DNA from: a virus
DNA: 43,126 nt
Virus record (IMG/VR): IMGVR_UViG_3300042261_000100
Coordinates: 1-43,126 of that record
Strand: one strand, 5' to 3'
A program made the position numbers and the translations under genes. Below, one piece after another: positions 9,272 to 17,494 of the stretch (within the stretch, counting starts at the first letter, position 1; each line of letters starts with the position of its first letter). The notes under the pieces are model-generated. The model did no database searches. It was given only the letters and a program-made list of their open reading frames with translations, and was not told the DNA's origin.

Positions 9272-10425
9272 TGTCATATATCGGCAACCAACCTACATCT
9301 ACAGCGTTCGTCACTGATACCTTTAGCGGTAACGGAAGTACTGTCGCATTCACAATGTCTGTGGCACCAGCTACGACCACATCTATCCTTGTTTCGATTA
9401 CAGGCGTACTGCAAGATCCATCGACCTACAGCGTTTCAGGTACAACACTGACCTTCTCAGCTGCGCCGCCAAGTGGTACTGGCAACATCTCTGTTCGCTA
9501 CCTAGGCATACCTGCATCAGGCGTGACAACAACGGCATACAGAACCGTTACCGAGTTCACAGCGACAGCGGGACAGACATCATTCACAACACCATCATAC
9601 ACAGTAGGCTACATCAACGTCTATCGTAACGGCGTGCTTCTAGGCAGTGCAGACTATACAGCCACAACAGGAACGACAATAGTACTGACAGCAGGTGCCA
9701 GCGCAGGTGACTTGGTAACGACAGAGAGCTTCTATGTGAGTTCTGTGTTGAATGCCATCCCCGCAACAGCTGGTGCAGTTAATTCATCGTATCTTTCTCC
9801 AAATCTCACACTCGGTGGTACCACTATATTAGGTAGCGGAGGGGCTGTAGTTCCTTCATGGACTACTGCTGGTAGGCCAGCTTCGCCAACAATTGGTCAA
9901 TATGGGTATAACACTACAACCGCAGGGCTTGAGTTATATGGAACAAATGGGTGGACTCAGATTACAAATGGCCCATCAATGGCAGCATATGCAACAGTAG
10001 TTACATCTATTCCAAATACAGTAGGTGTGATATTTACGATGAATGCAAAAGTGTATGATACCAATACCTGTTTTAATAATACAGGAAGCACAGTAACGTT
10101 AAATGGATTATCAGTTCCAGCATATGCATTTTGCCCTAATGTTCCAGGATATTATCAAATAAATCTAAGTTTCTATATTCCAATGTCAACAACTACTACA
10201 TGTCAAGGATACATTTATAAAAATGGTGGATTGTATGCATTAGGATATGGTGGATTTAGCGATGGAACTAACAATTTATCAGGTGCATCAACTGCTGTAT
10301 ATTTAAATGGTTCTGGCGATTATATTCAAGTTGGATGTTGGCAAAATTCAGGAGTTACAAAAAATAATGCTCTTAATGGAACCGTAGGTACATTCTTCAA
10401 TGCTTCATTTATGAGGGGTGCATAA
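9271..10425 (+). CDS. Tail fibre protein, MxYIGNQ module with C1q-like tip
   Basis: A 384-residue protein. Residues 1-85 (MSYIGNQPTSTAF, later GSTVAFTMSV and APPSGTGNISVRYLG) are paralogous to the start of the fibre at 6675. A second module (FTATAGQTSFTTPSYTVGYI, then NVYRNGVLL) follows at about 92-165. The C-terminal ~150 residues include PGYYQINLSFYIPMS and VGTFFNASFMRG, a C1q/TNF-like jelly-roll pattern typical of adhesive tips. By eye the DNA becomes more AT-rich from about 9780, matching the tip boundary. It overlaps the upstream stop by one base. Confidence 0.8.
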   Translation: MSYIGNQPTSTAFVTDTFSGNGSTVAFTMSVAPATTTSILVSITGVLQDPSTYSVSGTTLTFSAAPPSGTGNISVRYLGIPASGVTTTAYRTVTEFTATAGQTSFTTPSYTVGYINVYRNGVLLGSADYTATTGTTIVLTAGASAGDLVTTESFYVSSVLNAIPATAGAVNSSYLSPNLTLGGTTILGSGGAVVPSWTTAGRPASPTIGQYGYNTTTAGLELYGTNGWTQITNGPSMAAYATVVTSIPNTVGVIFTMNAKVYDTNTCFNNTGSTVTLNGLSVPAYAFCPNVPGYYQINLSFYIPMSTTTTCQGYIYKNGGLYALGYGGFSDGTNNLSGASTAVYLNGSGDYIQVGCWQNSGVTKNNALNGTVGTFFNASFMRGA

Positions 10426-10426
10426 C

Positions 10427-11359
10427 ATGACAAAAGCAGTCTCAATAGCTCAATCAGCCGCATCAGGCGTAACCGTAGGGTTTCGTAACCGTTTGATCAA
10501 CGGAGCCATGCAAATTTGGCAGCGAGGGACTACATTTAGTAGTGATTACACAGCAGATAGATGGCAAATAGCTGGCACAAGCATGACAGCAGCAAGAAGC
10601 ACAGATGTACCAAGTACAGCTTTTCAATATTCAATGTCATTTACAGGAAGCAGCAGCGCTCATATTAAGCAAAAAATAGAATCATATAATTGTTATGATC
10701 TTGTTGGTCAATCAATTACTATTTCATTTTGGGCAAAACAGACTGTTGGCGCTGGATCCAATGGGATTGGGGTAGATTTATATACGCCAAATTCTGTAGA
10801 TAATTATGCGGCAGTTACAAAAATAGCTGGAACCACACTTACAACGACAAATGCATGGGCATTTTACTCAGTTACATTTACCAACTTGGCTTCAAGTGTG
10901 ACTAATGGACTTCAACCGCTGATATACTTTCCAAGCGCATCTTCGCAGACAGTTATATTTACAGGCGTACAGCTTGAAGTCGGCACATCAGCCACTAACT
11001 TTGATTACAGACCATACACTACTGAATTGCAGTTGTGTCAGCGGTACTGTGTTAGATGGAAAGATGGAAGAATTGCAGTGGGAGGGTGGAATAGTACTAC
11101 ATCAGCAGACGTTATGATGAAAACCCCCGTTACCATGAGAGCTACGCCTTCAGTAACAGCATTAGCAAACGGGCAATTATTAAATATGGCAGTGGCATGG
11201 TATAACATTACGTCAGTAACTATTAACCCTGAAAGCATTCCTGATATTGTCGGAGTAACTGCTATTGTATCTACGTCTGGAGCCGCTCAAGGTAAAGTCG
11301 CTATTCTTGGTGGTGGTGGCGGTAGTCAGCCTGATTATTTATTCACTGCGGAGTTATAA
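10427..11359 (+). CDS. NGAM-type fibre tip / carbohydrate-binding-like protein, copy 1
   Basis: A 310-residue protein; I use the ATG at 10427, just after the upstream TAA, although the frame continues to a GTG at 10418. Near the N-terminus FRNRLINGAMQIWQRGT marks a family common in phage adhesins. The centre (SITISFWAKQ, later WAFYSVTF, GVQLEVGTSATNFDYRP) is a beta-sandwich pattern resembling carbohydrate-binding modules. LQLCQRYC then leads to a distinct C-terminal domain. A paralogue lies at 11536. Probably binds host surface glycans; function inferred from family. Confidence 0.8.
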   Translation: MTKAVSIAQSAASGVTVGFRNRLINGAMQIWQRGTTFSSDYTADRWQIAGTSMTAARSTDVPSTAFQYSMSFTGSSSAHIKQKIESYNCYDLVGQSITISFWAKQTVGAGSNGIGVDLYTPNSVDNYAAVTKIAGTTLTTTNAWAFYSVTFTNLASSVTNGLQPLIYFPSASSQTVIFTGVQLEVGTSATNFDYRPYTTELQLCQRYCVRWKDGRIAVGGWNSTTSADVMMKTPVTMRATPSVTALANGQLLNMAVAWYNITSVTINPESIPDIVGVTAIVSTSGAAQGKVAILGGGGGSQPDYLFTAEL

Positions 11360-11536
11360 ATGTATAAACTTCTAAAAGATAATTTATATAAAAAAGAATT
11401 TGGTGTAATCAAATTGAATGATGATGGCTCTACAACTAGCTTTATATTCGACCCCGCCAACACAGATTACCAGGCATATTTAGCATGGCTAGCCGAAGGC
11501 AATGAACCAGAACCCGCAGATGAGGTAACAGAATAA
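11360..11536 (+). CDS. 58-residue MYKL protein paired with fibre, copy 1
   Basis: The ATG at 11360 directly follows the TAA at 11357-11359, and the TAA at 11534-11536 overlaps the next ATG. The protein starts MYKLLKDNLYKKEFGVIKL and contains FDPANTDYQAYLAWLAEG near residues 30-47, with an acidic end. The same motif occurs in the small gene at 12610. The FDPANTDYQ...YLxWL pattern is known in short proteins beside fibre genes, often called fibre assembly-like. It is absent from longer-ORF calls because it is under 60 residues. Confidence 0.8.
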   Translation: MYKLLKDNLYKKEFGVIKLNDDGSTTSFIFDPANTDYQAYLAWLAEGNEPEPADEVTE

Positions 11537-12609
11537 TGGCACTTACCACCGTAGACCAAGGGCTACTAAACAGCTACGCCCAATATACAGGCTTCAAGAA
11601 TCGTATTATTAACGGTGCGATGATGATTGACCAGCGTAAGGCAGGGGCAAGCAATACATTCTCATCATCCTATACATATTTTTTGGATAGATTTGTTGCT
11701 TGGGGAAATGTTTCTAGTAGCACAACAATTCAACAAGTAGCTGACGCACCAGCAGGTTTTTACAATTCACTGAAGATTACTGTAGGGACAGGTGCAACGC
11801 CATCAGGATCTGATTATGGAAGATTGCAACAGCCTATCGAGGGTTTCAACTGGCAAGACATGCGGTGGGGATTTTCTGATGCCAAATCAATTACTATTTC
11901 ATTCTGGGTTAAGTCAAGCCTAACTGGTACATTCGGCTGTGGAATGCAAGGACAGACTTATTTTTATAGTGGCTCATACACAATTTCATCAGCTAACACG
12001 TGGGAATACAAAACAATTACCATTGCTGGATACACATCAGGCGGAACTACAGAATTTCCAGTAAATAACAGCGCTGGAGCTATCTTGTTTTTTGACTTAG
12101 GTGAAGGCCCATCACGTAGTTTGACGGTTAATACATGGACACTTAATGCTTCTTTTAGTATGAATGGTCTGACTGGCGGGACTAAAGTTTTGGCAACATC
12201 TGGTGCGACATGGCAGTTGACTGGAGTGCAGATAGAAAAAGGCTCTACAGCTACATCATTTGACTATAGACCTTATGGAACTGAGTTGGCTTTGTGTCAG
12301 AGGTATTATTGGAAAATGTATAATGACCCCTATAATACTTTTGGGTGTGGCTATGCTAATAGTGCAACTCAGGCAACTATTCAAATAAATTATCCATGCC
12401 AAATGAGAGCTAACCCAACATTTGCGATAGGCGGAAACATAAGAACAATTCCTACTGTATCTACAGTAACAGGAATTCCTTATAGTCAAGTAGGTTTGTT
12501 ATCAGGTTATGTCGGTTTTACTGGCTCTGGATTAACAACTAATGCAACTTGTTTAGTTGGTGCAAACAATGACACAACAGCATATTTATCGGCATCATCG
12601 GAGTTATAA
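11536..12609 (+). CDS. NGAM-type fibre tip / carbohydrate-binding-like protein, copy 2
   Basis: A 357-residue paralogue of the protein at 10427. Residues 18-40 hold GFKNRIINGAMMIDQRKAG; the middle has SITISFWVKSS, WEYKTITIAGY and GVQIEKGSTATSFDYRPYG; then ELALCQRYYWKMY leads to a divergent C-terminal domain. The shared framework with different ends suggests alternative receptor-binding specificities. It starts inside the stop of the small protein before it and is followed by a second MYKL protein, so the fibre-plus-small-protein unit is duplicated. Confidence 0.8.
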   Translation: MALTTVDQGLLNSYAQYTGFKNRIINGAMMIDQRKAGASNTFSSSYTYFLDRFVAWGNVSSSTTIQQVADAPAGFYNSLKITVGTGATPSGSDYGRLQQPIEGFNWQDMRWGFSDAKSITISFWVKSSLTGTFGCGMQGQTYFYSGSYTISSANTWEYKTITIAGYTSGGTTEFPVNNSAGAILFFDLGEGPSRSLTVNTWTLNASFSMNGLTGGTKVLATSGATWQLTGVQIEKGSTATSFDYRPYGTELALCQRYYWKMYNDPYNTFGCGYANSATQATIQINYPCQMRANPTFAIGGNIRTIPTVSTVTGIPYSQVGLLSGYVGFTGSGLTTNATCLVGANNDTTAYLSASSEL

Positions 12610-12765
12610 ATGTATAAATTATCTTTAGACCCAACAACAAAACAAACACATTCTGTAATCCGCACAACAGACGGAGCTTGCATCCCATTCGACCCAGCAA
12701 ACACAGACTACCAAGCCTATCTAAAATGGCTTGAAGATGGCGGTGTCCCAGAGGCTGCTGACTAA
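12610..12765 (+). CDS. 51-residue MYKL protein paired with fibre, copy 2
   Basis: The ATG at 12610 follows the TAA of the fibre with no gap, and the stop overlaps the next ATG by one base. The protein begins MYKLSLDPTTKQTHSVIRTT and has PFDPANTDYQAYLKWLEDGG, aligning with the copy at 11360. An 18-base string (gagttataaatgtataaa) spanning fibre end and gene start is identical at both copies. A fibre assembly or capping role is inferred from constant pairing. Confidence 0.8.
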   Translation: MYKLSLDPTTKQTHSVIRTTDGACIPFDPANTDYQAYLKWLEDGGVPEAAD

Positions 12766-13664
12766 TGTTCGGTATTTCATCCTTCTCTCAAACGCCTTTT
12801 GCTTCCCTAGCTGGGACGGCGCACGTTGTCTCGCTCAGCGAGAACGTAGGGATGAATGACACTTCCACACAGCTTTGTGCACTTCTTATGGCAAAGGTTG
12901 AGCCTGTCGTAATGAACGACCTCAATTCAGACCAAAACATTTTTATTGGTACTGTTAACGAGAACGTAGGACTTGCAGATACAACCACGCAGCAAAGCAA
13001 CTACTTGCAATCAATCACAGAAGACGTGCTTCCTGCAGATACACAAACAATCGCCGCGCAGTTTGCAGCTAGTCAAACCGAAGATGCGACGATCAATGAC
13101 GTGCTGGTACCATATTTTGCTGCAGTTGAAACACGTGTTGAACCATTCACAATGGCTGATGTTATTTCTATTACTGCGCAGTTCCAAGCAAGTATGACTG
13201 AGGCTTCAACAATCGCGGACACCATCGTAGGTTCAGCAGGGTTCAACGTAGCTAGAACAGAGAACTTAACAGCTGCAGATGCTGCATCGATCATTGCAGG
13301 GTTCGCTCAGAGTGTAACGGAAAACATCACACTTGCTGACATTGAAACCATCATTTCAATGTATTTCTTTACGATTATTGAGAGCTTAGATTCAGCTGAA
13401 GCCGCAACAATTACAGGTAACTTCTTATCAAGCATCACTGAGAACGTAAACCTTGCTGACACAAGCACACAACAATTTAGCTTCTTAGAAACGATAACAG
13501 AGTCGTTCAGCATGCTAGACGTGCATTATCCACGTGGTTGGATCAAGATTGACGACAGTCAAACAGCAAGTTGGGCTGCAATCTCAGACAGCCAGACACC
13601 AGGCTGGGTAGACGTAAATGATTCGCAGGCTGGCTCATGGGTACTAGTTGACGACAATCAATAA
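12765..13664 (+). CDS. Tandem 20-residue repeat protein of the fibre block
   Basis: A 299-residue protein starting MFGISSFSQTPFASLAG, a lead-in I recall in phage fibre-region proteins. From about residue 24 to 255 it is built from 11-12 repeats of about 20 residues with the approximate form TENxxLADTxTxxxxFxxS. The end consists of four shorter repeats of the type WxxIxDSQ (about residues 259-299). No Cys-based scaffold is present except one Cys near 37. It probably forms an elongated fibre or shaft component. It is acidic and Thr/Ala-rich. Confidence 0.8.
   Translation: MFGISSFSQTPFASLAGTAHVVSLSENVGMNDTSTQLCALLMAKVEPVVMNDLNSDQNIFIGTVNENVGLADTTTQQSNYLQSITEDVLPADTQTIAAQFAASQTEDATINDVLVPYFAAVETRVEPFTMADVISITAQFQASMTEASTIADTIVGSAGFNVARTENLTAADAASIIAGFAQSVTENITLADIETIISMYFFTIIESLDSAEAATITGNFLSSITENVNLADTSTQQFSFLETITESFSMLDVHYPRGWIKIDDSQTASWAAISDSQTPGWVDVNDSQAGSWVLVDDNQ
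12834..13530 (+). repeat. Tandem 60-base coding repeats
   Basis: About 11-12 degenerate units of roughly 60 bases encode the TENxxLADT repeat. Phrases such as gagaacgta and cttgctgaca recur at the unit starts (12840, 12958, 13330, 13440). Divergence between units suggests an old expansion rather than a recent slippage. Confidence 0.75.
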
Positions 13665-13704: not shown

Positions 13705-14517
13705 ATGGCAAGTACATATTCACCACTTCTAAGAATTCAGTTGATTGGTACTGGCGACCAGTCAGGTACTTGGGGTACAACGACTAACGTCAACTTAGGC
13801 ACGCTTATTGAAGAAGCCATCGCAGGTACTGCGACTATTGATGTGTCTGTAGCTAACGTAACCCTAACGGATTATGATGGTGTGACTGACCAAGCGCGTT
13901 GTGCTGCCTTACGCATCACAGGTACTCCAGGTGCTTCACGAGACATCGTTGCTCCAGCAACAAGTAAACTGTATGTAGTGGCTAATGGTTCAGATGCTGC
14001 AGTCGTACTTAAAACATCAGCATCAACAGGGCTTACAGTGCCTAGCGGTGAAGTGTATCTAGCCTACTATGACACAACATCATTAGACTTCCGCTTAGTT
14101 GGTCGTGCTTCAAGCTCAGCTAACACAGCTAACACATTGGTACTTCGAGATGGTTCAGGTAACTTCGCTGCAGGTACAATCACTGCGAACCTCACAGGTA
14201 ATGTGGCTGGTACGCTAACAGGCACTATCGCATCAACGACAGTAGCAACAACACAATCTGCAGGGGACAATTCTACAAAAGTAGCAACGACTGCTTATGT
14301 AAAAACCGCGGTGGATAATGCGACAGGTTCACTAGGGACTATGTCCACACAGAACGCTAACAGCGTGGCTATTACTGGCGGTACGATTGCAGGTGTGGCA
14401 ATTTCATCTAGTACGATTGGCGGCTTGACAGTAGGTACAAACGCTACAGGTAACAGAACAGTTTCAACATCAGCCCCTACAGGCGGTTCTGATGGGGATA
14501 TTTGGTATCAATACTAA
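13705..14517 (+). CDS. Tail fibre-like protein
   Basis: A 270-residue protein with AAAGGA before the ATG after a 40-base gap, the largest between late genes. The N-terminal ~130 residues (LLRIQLIGTGDQSGTWGTTT, then VNLGTLIEEAIAG, later TVPSGEVYLAYYD) are a well-conserved phage fibre module. After that come shaft-like NLTGNVAGTLTGT and TTAYVKTAVDNA, and it ends GGSDGDIWYQY. It probably forms part of the tail fibre network. The TAA overlaps the next ATG by one base. Confidence 0.85.
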   Translation: MASTYSPLLRIQLIGTGDQSGTWGTTTNVNLGTLIEEAIAGTATIDVSVANVTLTDYDGVTDQARCAALRITGTPGASRDIVAPATSKLYVVANGSDAAVVLKTSASTGLTVPSGEVYLAYYDTTSLDFRLVGRASSSANTANTLVLRDGSGNFAAGTITANLTGNVAGTLTGTIASTTVATTQSAGDNSTKVATTAYVKTAVDNATGSLGTMSTQNANSVAITGGTIAGVAISSSTIGGLTVGTNATGNRTVSTSAPTGGSDGDIWYQY

Positions 14518-15152
14518 TGGCTAAACTATATACAAAAGTCAGCGGGGCATGGCAGCCAGTTAAAATTATCGCGGTTAAGTCTGGTGGCGTATTCCGATAT
14601 ATTAAAGCTGCATGGATAAATCAAGGTGGTACATGGCGATTGTTCTACGGTAATAACTCCGGCACACAAACATTTAGTGTAGGTTCGACTTCATGGACAG
14701 TGCCTGACGGTGTGTATTCGATTACTATCACGGGTTGTGGTGGTGCAGGTCCAGGCGGTGGTGGTGACGGCGGGGCTAACTATAATGGTCCAGGCGCAGG
14801 TGGTGGCGGTGCTAACTTAATCACATATACCTATAGTGTCACACCAGGAACAGTATTAGCAATTACCGTAGGTGCAGCAGGTACGCCTCCAACTTTCTCA
14901 GCGCAGACAGGGTCTAATGGTCAACCAACAACTGTATCAGGTACAGGGGTGTCCTTTGCTACAGGAGCGGGTACTGCTGGTGCGGGTTACTACGCTGGTC
15001 GCGCTGTAGGTATCGGGGCTAACGGTGCGAATAATGGTTCGATTCCTGGCGGCGGTGCATCTACTAACGGCGGTGCTAACGGCGGTTCAGGTGGTGGTTA
15101 TGAGCAAGGTGGTTATCCAGGAGATAACGGAAAATTATCCATAACATATTAG
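14517..15152 (+). CDS. Glycine-rich fibre/adhesin-like protein
   Basis: A 211-residue protein from the ATG at 14517; an in-frame TTG at 14502 is less likely. The N-terminus (MAKLYTKVSGAWQPVKIIAV, then GGTWRLFYGNN) resembles small tail-tip modules. From about residue 55 it is very Gly-rich (GCGGAGPGGGGDGG and similar), a pattern seen in phage adhesin tips that form polyglycine helices. It ends GDNGKLSITY. The downstream oxygenase frame starts inside its last 19 bases, in the -1 frame relative to this one. Confidence 0.8.
   Translation: MAKLYTKVSGAWQPVKIIAVKSGGVFRYIKAAWINQGGTWRLFYGNNSGTQTFSVGSTSWTVPDGVYSITITGCGGAGPGGGGDGGANYNGPGAGGGGANLITYTYSVTPGTVLAITVGAAGTPPTFSAQTGSNGQPTTVSGTGVSFATGAGTAGAGYYAGRAVGIGANGANNGSIPGGGASTNGGANGGSGGGYEQGGYPGDNGKLSITY
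15119..15124 (+). promoter_or_regulatory. Ribosome-binding site AGGAGA for the ATT-started oxygenase
   Basis: AGGAGA lies 9 bases before the ATT at 15134 and inside the end of the glycine-rich fibre gene. No ATG, GTG, TTG or CTG occurs in the oxygenase frame between the stop at 15125 and the ATG at 15293, so this site is the best sequence support for an unusual start near 15134. Confidence 0.55.
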
Positions 15153-15685
15153 AAGGTTTAGTTGATTCCGAGTTAGCTGATAAGCTTGAAGAAGCTATAG
15201 GGGGATATACAATCCCCTGGGTTTGGCAGGCATCTTCTAAATATGGGCGTGATATATTAGACATAAGAGGCCCTGACTTTCAGTTTATTCATATGTTGTA
15301 TGTGAATGGGGAAATAAAGTCACCTTACTATAGTTTAGTAGAATTGGTGCTTCGCGAATTTGAGGCGCATACAGGCTTAACGGTCAAATCAGTGTTTAAG
15401 GTCAAGGCTAACTTACTGCCTAAACAGACATTGACTGAGGCGGAACTAGAAGAAACGGTTCATGTAGATCTGCATAAGACAGATAAAAATTACATAACCT
15501 TAGTGTATTATGTCCTTAACTCAGATGGCAATACGATCGTATTTGATGATGGCAAAGAGGTTTGGTTAAAAGCAAGTCCTGTGAAGGGAAATGCTGTATG
15601 GTTCCCGTCACATATGGAGCACAGAGCGACGCCTCCACAAGGGCATAAACGAAGAGTCGTACTAAACATAATTATGGAAGTATAA
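15134..15685 (+). CDS. 2-oxoglutarate/Fe(II)-dependent oxygenase (prolyl hydroxylase-like), non-ATG start
   Basis: The ATG at 15293 would give only 130 residues, but the frame is open to 15128 and the extra codons read like the normal N-terminus of the family: NILEGLVDSELADKLEEAI, then YTIPWVWQAS. I therefore start at ATT 15134 (183 residues) with AGGAGA 9 bases upstream; ATC 15137 or ATA 15146 are alternatives. Metal ligands are H110 and D112 in VHVDLHK and probably H163 in MEHRATPP; R173 or R174 would bind 2-oxoglutarate. Such enzymes hydroxylate protein or small-molecule substrates. The target may be a neighbouring fibre, which is inference. Confidence 0.75.
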   Translation: MIHNILEGLVDSELADKLEEAIGGYTIPWVWQASSKYGRDILDIRGPDFQFIHMLYVNGEIKSPYYSLVELVLREFEAHTGLTVKSVFKVKANLLPKQTLTEAELEETVHVDLHKTDKNYITLVYYVLNSDGNTIVFDDGKEVWLKASPVKGNAVWFPSHMEHRATPPQGHKRRVVLNIIMEV

Positions 15686-15686
15686 C

Positions 15687-16169
15687 GTGAAAAAGATTAT
15701 CGCATATCTATTCTTAGCGTTCTTTTTTGGCTTCGGTATTGGGTCATGTATGAATATGGCTTTTGCTGAGACCACTGTGATTGAATATAAAGGTCAACCT
15801 GTACCCAGCGCTATGGCGCCAGTAATGAGCGCAATGAATCCAAAGATGTGCCGAACAGGTGTATCTGGGGGCGCTAACACAGGGGTGTTCTCTGTAAGTG
15901 GTGGGATCACTATCATTGATGAGAATTGTGAACGAGTTATTTTGGCTGAGACGTTAGCCAATCAAGGCTTAAAGGTAGCTTCAGTATCTGTGCTCTGCCA
16001 AGATAAGCGAGTATGGCGCGGTATGGAGATGGGCGGTAGTCCTTGCCCTATTGGTGGTGCGGTAGGTGACGCTGCGCGACAAGCTTGGTATCAACTCCAT
16101 CCTGATTGGTTCGAGGAATTATATGGCCCGACTTTTGTTTTGCCTATCTCTACTACTAGGAGCGAATAA
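15687..16169 (+). CDS. Exported conserved phage protein with signal peptide
   Basis: A 160-residue protein starting with GTG and GGAAG upstream. MKKIIAYLFLAFFFGFGIG is a signal sequence; cleavage after AFA (residue 27) would leave ETTVIEYKGQPVPS. IGSC at about 18-21 could also act as a weak lipobox. The mature part holds KGQPVPSAMAPVMSAMNPKM, DENCERVILAETL and SVLCQDKRVW with several Cys, a pattern I know from phage proteins near lysis genes. It probably acts in the periplasm or outer membrane. Exact function unknown. Confidence 0.75.
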   Translation: MKKIIAYLFLAFFFGFGIGSCMNMAFAETTVIEYKGQPVPSAMAPVMSAMNPKMCRTGVSGGANTGVFSVSGGITIIDENCERVILAETLANQGLKVASVSVLCQDKRVWRGMEMGGSPCPIGGAVGDAARQAWYQLHPDWFEELYGPTFVLPISTTRSE

Positions 16170-17133
16170 TGCATATGCTTGGTATTGTACTTACACGCCT
16201 ACTCAACAAGGGTACATCTCTAATCTGCAGTGCTATGACATTGATCCGGTCTATGCTGTCCAAAATTACTGGTGCCCTTACCACCCTCAAGACCCGATTT
16301 GCGCACCACCGCCTCCTGCTTGTGTTGACACAGTCGAATATCAGTCGCTTGCGTGCCAACCTCATTACAGCGGTGTCGTTAATCAAAGCAGGCACTACTC
16401 CTGTGCTACAGAGTCTTTTAGCGCTTGGACAACTACTTCTGACAACTGCACGCCAGATCCTCCAACGTGCCAAACAAGTGTTCAAGAAAGACAAGTAGCA
16501 TGTCAAGATGGGTTCGTGGGATCTATAACGCAGCAGCAAACTTCAACATGTCCGGATCCCTACGGGCAGCCGCTGGCAGGACAATGGATAGAGGTAGCGA
16601 ACTCGTGCGAGAAAGCGCTGACAAACCCAACAAATATAGCGAGTCCAATCTCGCCAGTGAGTCCGCTAAACCCGTCCAACATGGTTGCACCTGTCATAGT
16701 GCAAGAACCTGTGACTGTAGAGACGGCGAGTGTGCCGACAACGACGGAGAGTGCCCCGACTGCAAATGCTACAACTGCGGATGCGAAAGTCGAAACAAAG
16801 CAAGACACACCGACTGTAGTTGCACAGCCTGCACAGGATACGCAGACTACATCGATAGCACCAACAACACCCCCGGGAAAGACACTGGTACCCGGATTCG
16901 GATTAGTGATGAGCCTCGAGCTTCTGAACGCCCCAGTGCAAATTCAACAAGTACAATTGAATACATTACTGGAATACAGTCAGGAGTTACCGTATGAGCT
17001 TGGAGGAAATCAAGGAGTCTTACTCGAATTTATCAGCGACAATGAAGTTGCTGCTTACTTTGCTGCTCGCGGGCGGTGGGAGCACGATCTGGTACGTGGT
17101 TACGTTTTTCAACGACTCCCAAGCTACGATTGA
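16123..17133 (+). CDS. Exported Cys-rich protein with two 4-Cys repeats
   Basis: I use the ATG at 16123 (336 residues), with GAGGAA before it, because it begins a clean signal peptide MARLLFCLSLLLGANNAYA. The mature N-terminal half has 12 Cys, including two tandem 4-Cys units (about residues 64-115 and 116-165) of the thrombospondin-like form C-x9-C, then C, then W and C. A Pro/Thr/Ala-rich linker (about 170-260) follows, then a C-terminal part with VPGFGLVMSLELLNAP. It overlaps the upstream gene by 47 bases and the downstream gene by 140 bases in another frame. Likely periplasmic or surface; function unknown. Confidence 0.65.
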   Translation: MARLLFCLSLLLGANNAYAWYCTYTPTQQGYISNLQCYDIDPVYAVQNYWCPYHPQDPICAPPPPACVDTVEYQSLACQPHYSGVVNQSRHYSCATESFSAWTTTSDNCTPDPPTCQTSVQERQVACQDGFVGSITQQQTSTCPDPYGQPLAGQWIEVANSCEKALTNPTNIASPISPVSPLNPSNMVAPVIVQEPVTVETASVPTTTESAPTANATTADAKVETKQDTPTVVAQPAQDTQTTSIAPTTPPGKTLVPGFGLVMSLELLNAPVQIQQVQLNTLLEYSQELPYELGGNQGVLLEFISDNEVAAYFAARGRWEHDLVRGYVFQRLPSYD

Positions 17134-17494
17134 GTTTGCAAAGAATTATAAGCCGTACGACGACGCTGCCGTGAAAGAACTTATTACTAAGACCAACACA
17201 GAGATTCTCACCCGCAATGCGGCTTTAGAGCAAGAGAATGCTAAACTACGCGCAGAAGTTGCAGCGGCACAAAGCGCTTTAGTCCAGGCGGCTGGACAAC
17301 TAGCTAGGGTACAAGAAAAGGCTAGTGAAGCTGCTGTATCTGCAACTGAAGCGAAGACAATATCATTGGGTACTCAACGCGAGACACAGGCGATGCTTAC
17401 GTCAATTCGTGAAGAGGTTAGAACCACTAAGGAAGGCTTAGAAGCACGCATGAAAGCGTTGCAGAAAGCCACCGTTAACCCATTAGGAAATTAA
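16994..17494 (+). CDS. Membrane-anchored coiled-coil protein, candidate inner-membrane spanin
   Basis: A 166-residue protein with a strong AGGAG seven to eight bases before the ATG. Residues 1-16 are polar, about 17-40 form one membrane span (MKLLLTLLLAGGGSTIWYVV), and residues about 65-160 are a long Ala/Glu/Lys/Gln coiled coil. This N-in, C-out layout beside holin and endolysin genes resembles inner-membrane spanins such as Rz, which help disrupt the outer membrane. There is no sequence match that I recognise. Its first 140 bases overlap the upstream Cys-rich gene. Confidence 0.65.
   Translation: MSLEEIKESYSNLSATMKLLLTLLLAGGGSTIWYVVTFFNDSQATIEFAKNYKPYDDAAVKELITKTNTEILTRNAALEQENAKLRAEVAAAQSALVQAAGQLARVQEKASEAAVSATEAKTISLGTQRETQAMLTSIREEVRTTKEGLEARMKALQKATVNPLGN

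Follow-up and report, generated by a model that had tools for sequence, protein, structure and literature searches.

An oxygenase gene in an uncultured phage encodes its family N-terminus ahead of any standard start codon and may begin at ATT

The window analysed here, the 43,126-nt stretch that spans IMG/VR virus record IMGVR_UViG_3300042261_000100, carries a gene for a predicted 2OG-Fe(II) oxygenase whose coding region begins about 53 codons before its first standard start codon. It is essentially certain that these 53 codons are coding, homologous to the N-termini of related phage proteins and integral to the enzyme's structure, and hence that they form its true N-terminus. How they come to be translated admits several readings, and the one that we favour, with a probability of roughly 0.6, is that the gene specifies a free-standing protein of 183 residues whose synthesis begins at a near-cognate codon, most likely ATT 15134. 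The relevant features, all on the + strand and numbered along the window, are as follows.

14520–15152 (second codon onward), +: glycine-rich tail fibre or minor tail-type protein; Pfam PF21722 (Gly_rich_2) matches residues 54–204 of 210
15119–15124, +: AGGAGA, a Shine-Dalgarno-like site that precedes ATT 15134 by 9 nt; it occurs nowhere else on the + strand of the window
15134–15136, +: ATT, the most likely initiation codon, as suggested by homologue start positions and Shine-Dalgarno spacing
15137–15139, +: ATC, the second-best candidate start, from homologue start positions; Shine-Dalgarno spacing 12 nt
15134–15292, +: N-terminal extension of 53 codons, lost if ATG 15293 is called; profile test, AlphaFold model, homologue conservation
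15134–15685, +: gene for a predicted 183-residue 2OG-Fe(II) oxygenase of the phrog_274 family with HxD...H and R intact; phrog_274, PF13640, AlphaFold, Foldseek
15293–15295, +: ATG, the first standard start, within the beta strand of residues 50–57; poor Shine-Dalgarno pairing (-0.7 kcal/mol)

A codon-by-codon reading established that the oxygenase frame opens directly after a TAA at 15125–15127 and occupies 15128–15685 on the + strand. As the preliminary description of this DNA had stated, ATG, GTG, TTG and CTG are all absent from 15128–15292, and ATG 15293, exactly 53 codons beyond ATT 15134, is the first standard start in the frame; its further claim that standard start rules would truncate the gene is supported, the first start available to them lying 53 codons inside. 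Open stretches of this kind are not rare, as 19 of the 224 window ORFs of at least 55 codons likewise contain no standard start among codons 1–55; it is the homology of the stretch, not its openness, that exceeds chance.

Several lines of evidence agree with the earlier identification of the product as a 2OG-Fe(II) oxygenase. The phrog_274 profile matches residues 7–181 (E 5e-28), and PF13640 (2OG-FeII_Oxy_3) matches with 31.8 bits against a cut-off of 27 (E 3e-7). Counted from the ATT, residues H110, D112, H163 and R174, corresponding to the HxD...H iron triad and the 2OG-binding arginine, are invariant in an alignment of 56 sequences. An AlphaFold model computed with these 56 sequences (pLDDT 93.8) adopts the double-stranded beta-helix fold, and Foldseek aligns it with 2OG oxygenases of the prolyl-hydroxylase type (P4H/PHD2; E about 1e-7, TM 0.5–0.65). 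Among predicted viral structures, the best matches are free-standing proteins of about 180 aa that align over their entire length; a sequence-profile search of the PDB with the oxygenase gave no match. In the model, the protein shares with the P4H of P. putida (4iw3/4j25) and with PHD2/EGLN1 both the fold and the order of the residues that bind metal and 2OG, at an identity of only about 15–18%. Members of phrog_274, e.g. QPB08075.1 of Synechococcus phage S-H9-1, have in common with the window protein an N-terminal (I/V)(I/V)DN...FPW motif as well as the C-terminal HxD...H...R, and the full-length match runs from residue 7 to residue 181; unlike the window gene, however, they start at ATG, GTG or TTG. 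On sequence and modelled structure, then, the gene product is a predicted 2OG-Fe(II) oxygenase of the phrog_274 family. That family is itself labelled 'DNA endonuclease V', and the label 'DNA endonuclease V/DenV' recurs in many cyanophage records (e.g. our loci L001–L007). Since PF13640 is matched by 52 of the 56 aligned members, and a 2OG oxygenase fold is predicted, the label is likely a propagated misannotation of an oxygenase family. One of these records also illustrates truncation despite an available standard start: gp204 of Synechococcus phage S-WAM1 (L007, NC_031944.1, 36279–36770) is annotated from 36468, and its family N-terminus starts at ATG 36279.

Homologues were gathered from cyanophages, from loci reached via a neighbouring structural gene and from direct scans, and numbered 65 after removal of near-duplicates. 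Two partial matches (L165, L170) were excluded from this set, as the match begins well inside the protein; in both, the ORF contains an upstream ATG. All 65 carry the N-terminal motif region that in the window lies before ATG 15293, and their starts (61 ATG, 2 GTG and 2 TTG) lie 1–17 residues, mostly 1–5, upstream of the column of I7. Scored by itself against a profile of the 65 homologues from which the window protein had been left out, the extension reaches 14.5 bits (E 0.003), more than any of 2000 shuffles (best 8.4) or any of the other 224 window ORFs (best 9.1). Joined to the remainder of the protein, it lifts the score by 29 bits (158.6 for the full protein versus 129.4 for the truncated form); it raises the phrog_274 match by 23 bits. 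In the AlphaFold model the extension forms a helix at residues 12–23 (confidence about 95–98) and strands at residues 30–32 and 50–57. These results bear out the earlier proposal that the 53 extra residues are the family N-terminus. Codon usage does not locate the start, in that the extension (0.4 bits over 46 codons) and the remaining part (-1.7 over 130) are equally atypical and both fall below the typical genes of the phage.

Translation from ATG 15293 would yield a truncated enzyme of 130 residues. This codon is the first that a standard rule would accept, the HxD...H and R lie downstream of it, and the truncated protein still matches phrog_274 with 76 bits. However, homologues beginning at the corresponding residue, which would have spoken against the extension, were sought among the 65 and none was found. 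As ATG 15293 encodes residue 54, inside the strand of residues 50–57, a start there would cut that strand and drop a helix of a confident model. Its Shine-Dalgarno pairing is nearly nil, weaker than at about 92% of random sites, and the preceding 140 bases would be conserved coding sequence without use. We consider a start at this ATG improbable.

Where upstream of ATG 15293 translation begins is less sharply constrained. Early MAFFT alignments disagreed, placing either KIIHN or ILEG of the window protein on the IIDN of its homologues; a gap-free alignment with the closer homologues sets ILEG on IIDN, which moves the expected start to I3–N6. Relative to the I7 column, ATT 15134 stands at -4, a position at which 9 of the 65 homologues start, and ATC 15137 at -3, shared by 10 of the 65; ATA 15146, at position 0, is the starting point of none. 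Homologue starts thus fit ATT and ATC equally well, and the preference for ATT comes from Shine-Dalgarno spacing. Of the original claim of an ATT start, initiation upstream of ATG 15293 stands, and the choice of ATT over ATC turns on that spacing.

The AGGAGA was correctly placed 9 bases before the ATT, but as a Shine-Dalgarno site it is weaker than had been implied. Its duplex with the anti-Shine-Dalgarno sequence (-7.4 kcal/mol) is on par with those of the better genes of the phage and is equalled or exceeded at about 10% of random positions, an AGGAGA-N9-ATH pattern is expected 0.72 times by chance per window, and 10 nt separate AGGAG from ATT, versus 6–7 nt at the phage's strong sites. The same bases also encode Pro-Gly-Asp of the fibre protein, and the motif may for that reason be a matter of chance. 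A weak hairpin takes in part of it. Around the site, TTATCCA...TAAC occurs twice, 22 nt apart, at 15112–15145, and GTTATC-CAGGA-GATAAC can form a small hairpin; this repeat and hairpin could reflect chance or the trace of an insertion junction.

As the window gene contains no standard start at the expected place, near-cognate initiation is the most likely solution. According to this model, the complete, free-standing oxygenase would start at about 15134, inside the final 19 nt of the glycine-rich fibre gene; members of the oxygenase family commonly overlap the gene before them, by 1–26 nt. Initiator fMet-tRNA would read an AUH codon, with ATT 15134 as first choice and ATC 15137 as second, and the AGGAGA, together with ribosomes that finish the fibre at TAG 15150, would assist initiation in a form of coupled translation. 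Output of the oxygenase would be low. We infer that translation starts at ATT, that it is coupled to termination of the fibre and that expression is low. AUU starts have been documented in infC and pcnB of Escherichia coli (PMC9410913) and are repressed by IF3 (PMC5472188), and re-initiation near an overlapping stop is known to couple genes, an effect that a Shine-Dalgarno sequence increases (PMC2268962). The window gene resembles infC and pcnB in pairing a presumed AUU start with an upstream Shine-Dalgarno-like site (PMC9410913, PMC5472188). In the E. coli genes, however, the AUU starts are experimentally shown and regulatory, whereas the window offers one uncultured phage sequence of which no second copy was found, and its more distant homologues use standard starts in place of the ATT. 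ATT starts, though rare, are thus already known, and this gene would add an instance.

The main and serious rival to ATT initiation is that a standard start is normal for this gene and is missing from the single contig through a base error, a consensus of mixed strains or a recent mutation that removed it, such that the extension is still the true N-terminus and no special initiation is needed. In each of the 65 non-redundant homologues a standard start lies shortly before the motif, which gives no support to a non-standard start as a property of the family; the window gene is the sole sampled member that lacks a standard one. Furthermore, the sequence is represented by one IMG/VR contig for which we found no second copy as a cross-check, and we estimate the priors of true ATT starts and of consensus errors to be similarly small. 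On the other hand, the gene displays no other damage, its frame running uninterrupted to the stop codon and retaining every catalytic residue, and the sequence as given presents a Shine-Dalgarno-like site in workable register for the ATT. The weights assigned to this rival and to the ATT start are judgements rather than computed values; we regard an error or start loss as a real possibility, though the less probable of the two.

The preliminary description had also raised a -1 frameshift near GGA AAA TTA at the fibre end, which would generate a fibre-oxygenase fusion. The oxygenase frame does lie at -1 to the fibre frame with an overlap of 8 codons, an A_AAA tetramer there permits P-site slippage, and a Shine-Dalgarno-like site is located upstream. 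Yet the overlap holds no X_XXY_YYZ heptamer, all seven in-frame heptamers failing the pattern, and downstream structure is neither strong nor well placed (folding z -0.6 to -1.7, with the nearest stem about 24 nt off). The fibre gene, whose ATG at 14517–14519 overlaps the stop of the preceding gene, ends in ...NGKLSITY at TAG 15150–15152; GKLSITY is a normal fibre end directly after the Pfam domain match, and a fusion would replace it. The homologues, moreover, are all free-standing, with none fused in frame to its upstream gene, and none of those examined directly follows a glycine-rich fibre. A search of the fibre-oxygenase junction for Rfam elements returned none. Lacking a slippery heptamer, a stimulatory structure and a fused homologue, the frameshift was not borne out, and it is the least probable of the readings considered here.

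Returning to near-cognate initiation of a free-standing enzyme, the surroundings of the gene suggest a history for it. A single-protein scan of viral contigs detected no close relative for the oxygenase, none was found in plasmids, and searching with a degenerate DNA pattern that encodes TIPWVWQA recovered no second copy. L089, the record closest to the window at the gene that follows the oxygenase immediately (81% identity), is without the oxygenase, and consequently no start codon can be read from a near strain. Because of this absence, and because codon usage is atypical along the entire gene, the oxygenase resembles a passenger gene that was picked up recently between the fibre and the lysis genes, and its original start was possibly lost on insertion into the locus. 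It is tempting to speculate that an auxiliary oxygenase, recently acquired into a fibre-lysis cassette, truly initiates at AUU within the fibre end, with discrimination by IF3 and coupling to late fibre translation keeping the enzyme low; we advance this fuller scenario tentatively, and with less confidence than the near-cognate start itself.

AUU initiation is known in very few genes, and from a clear phage case it would follow that viral genomes retain near-cognate starts and that genes using them are cut short by gene callers. The finding is mainly a gene-caller pitfall, and start checking by homology recovers 53 residues of enzyme core.

Other parts of the neighbourhood merit mention. At 12765–13664 the window encodes a 299-aa protein of degenerate SxTENVxLADT-type repeats, without a Pfam or PHROGs match. 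Successive fibre-type genes at 10418–11359 and 11536–12609 have matches to one and the same C-terminal part of phrog_4492; two similar fibre-type genes also stand in tandem in L089, pointing to repeated fibre modules. Downstream of the oxygenase, a + strand reading frame at 16066–17133 encodes a secreted, cysteine-rich protein of 355 aa and shares about 140 nt with the next gene (16994–17494, +), which is read in another frame; L089 and a second record, L090, conserve both frames.
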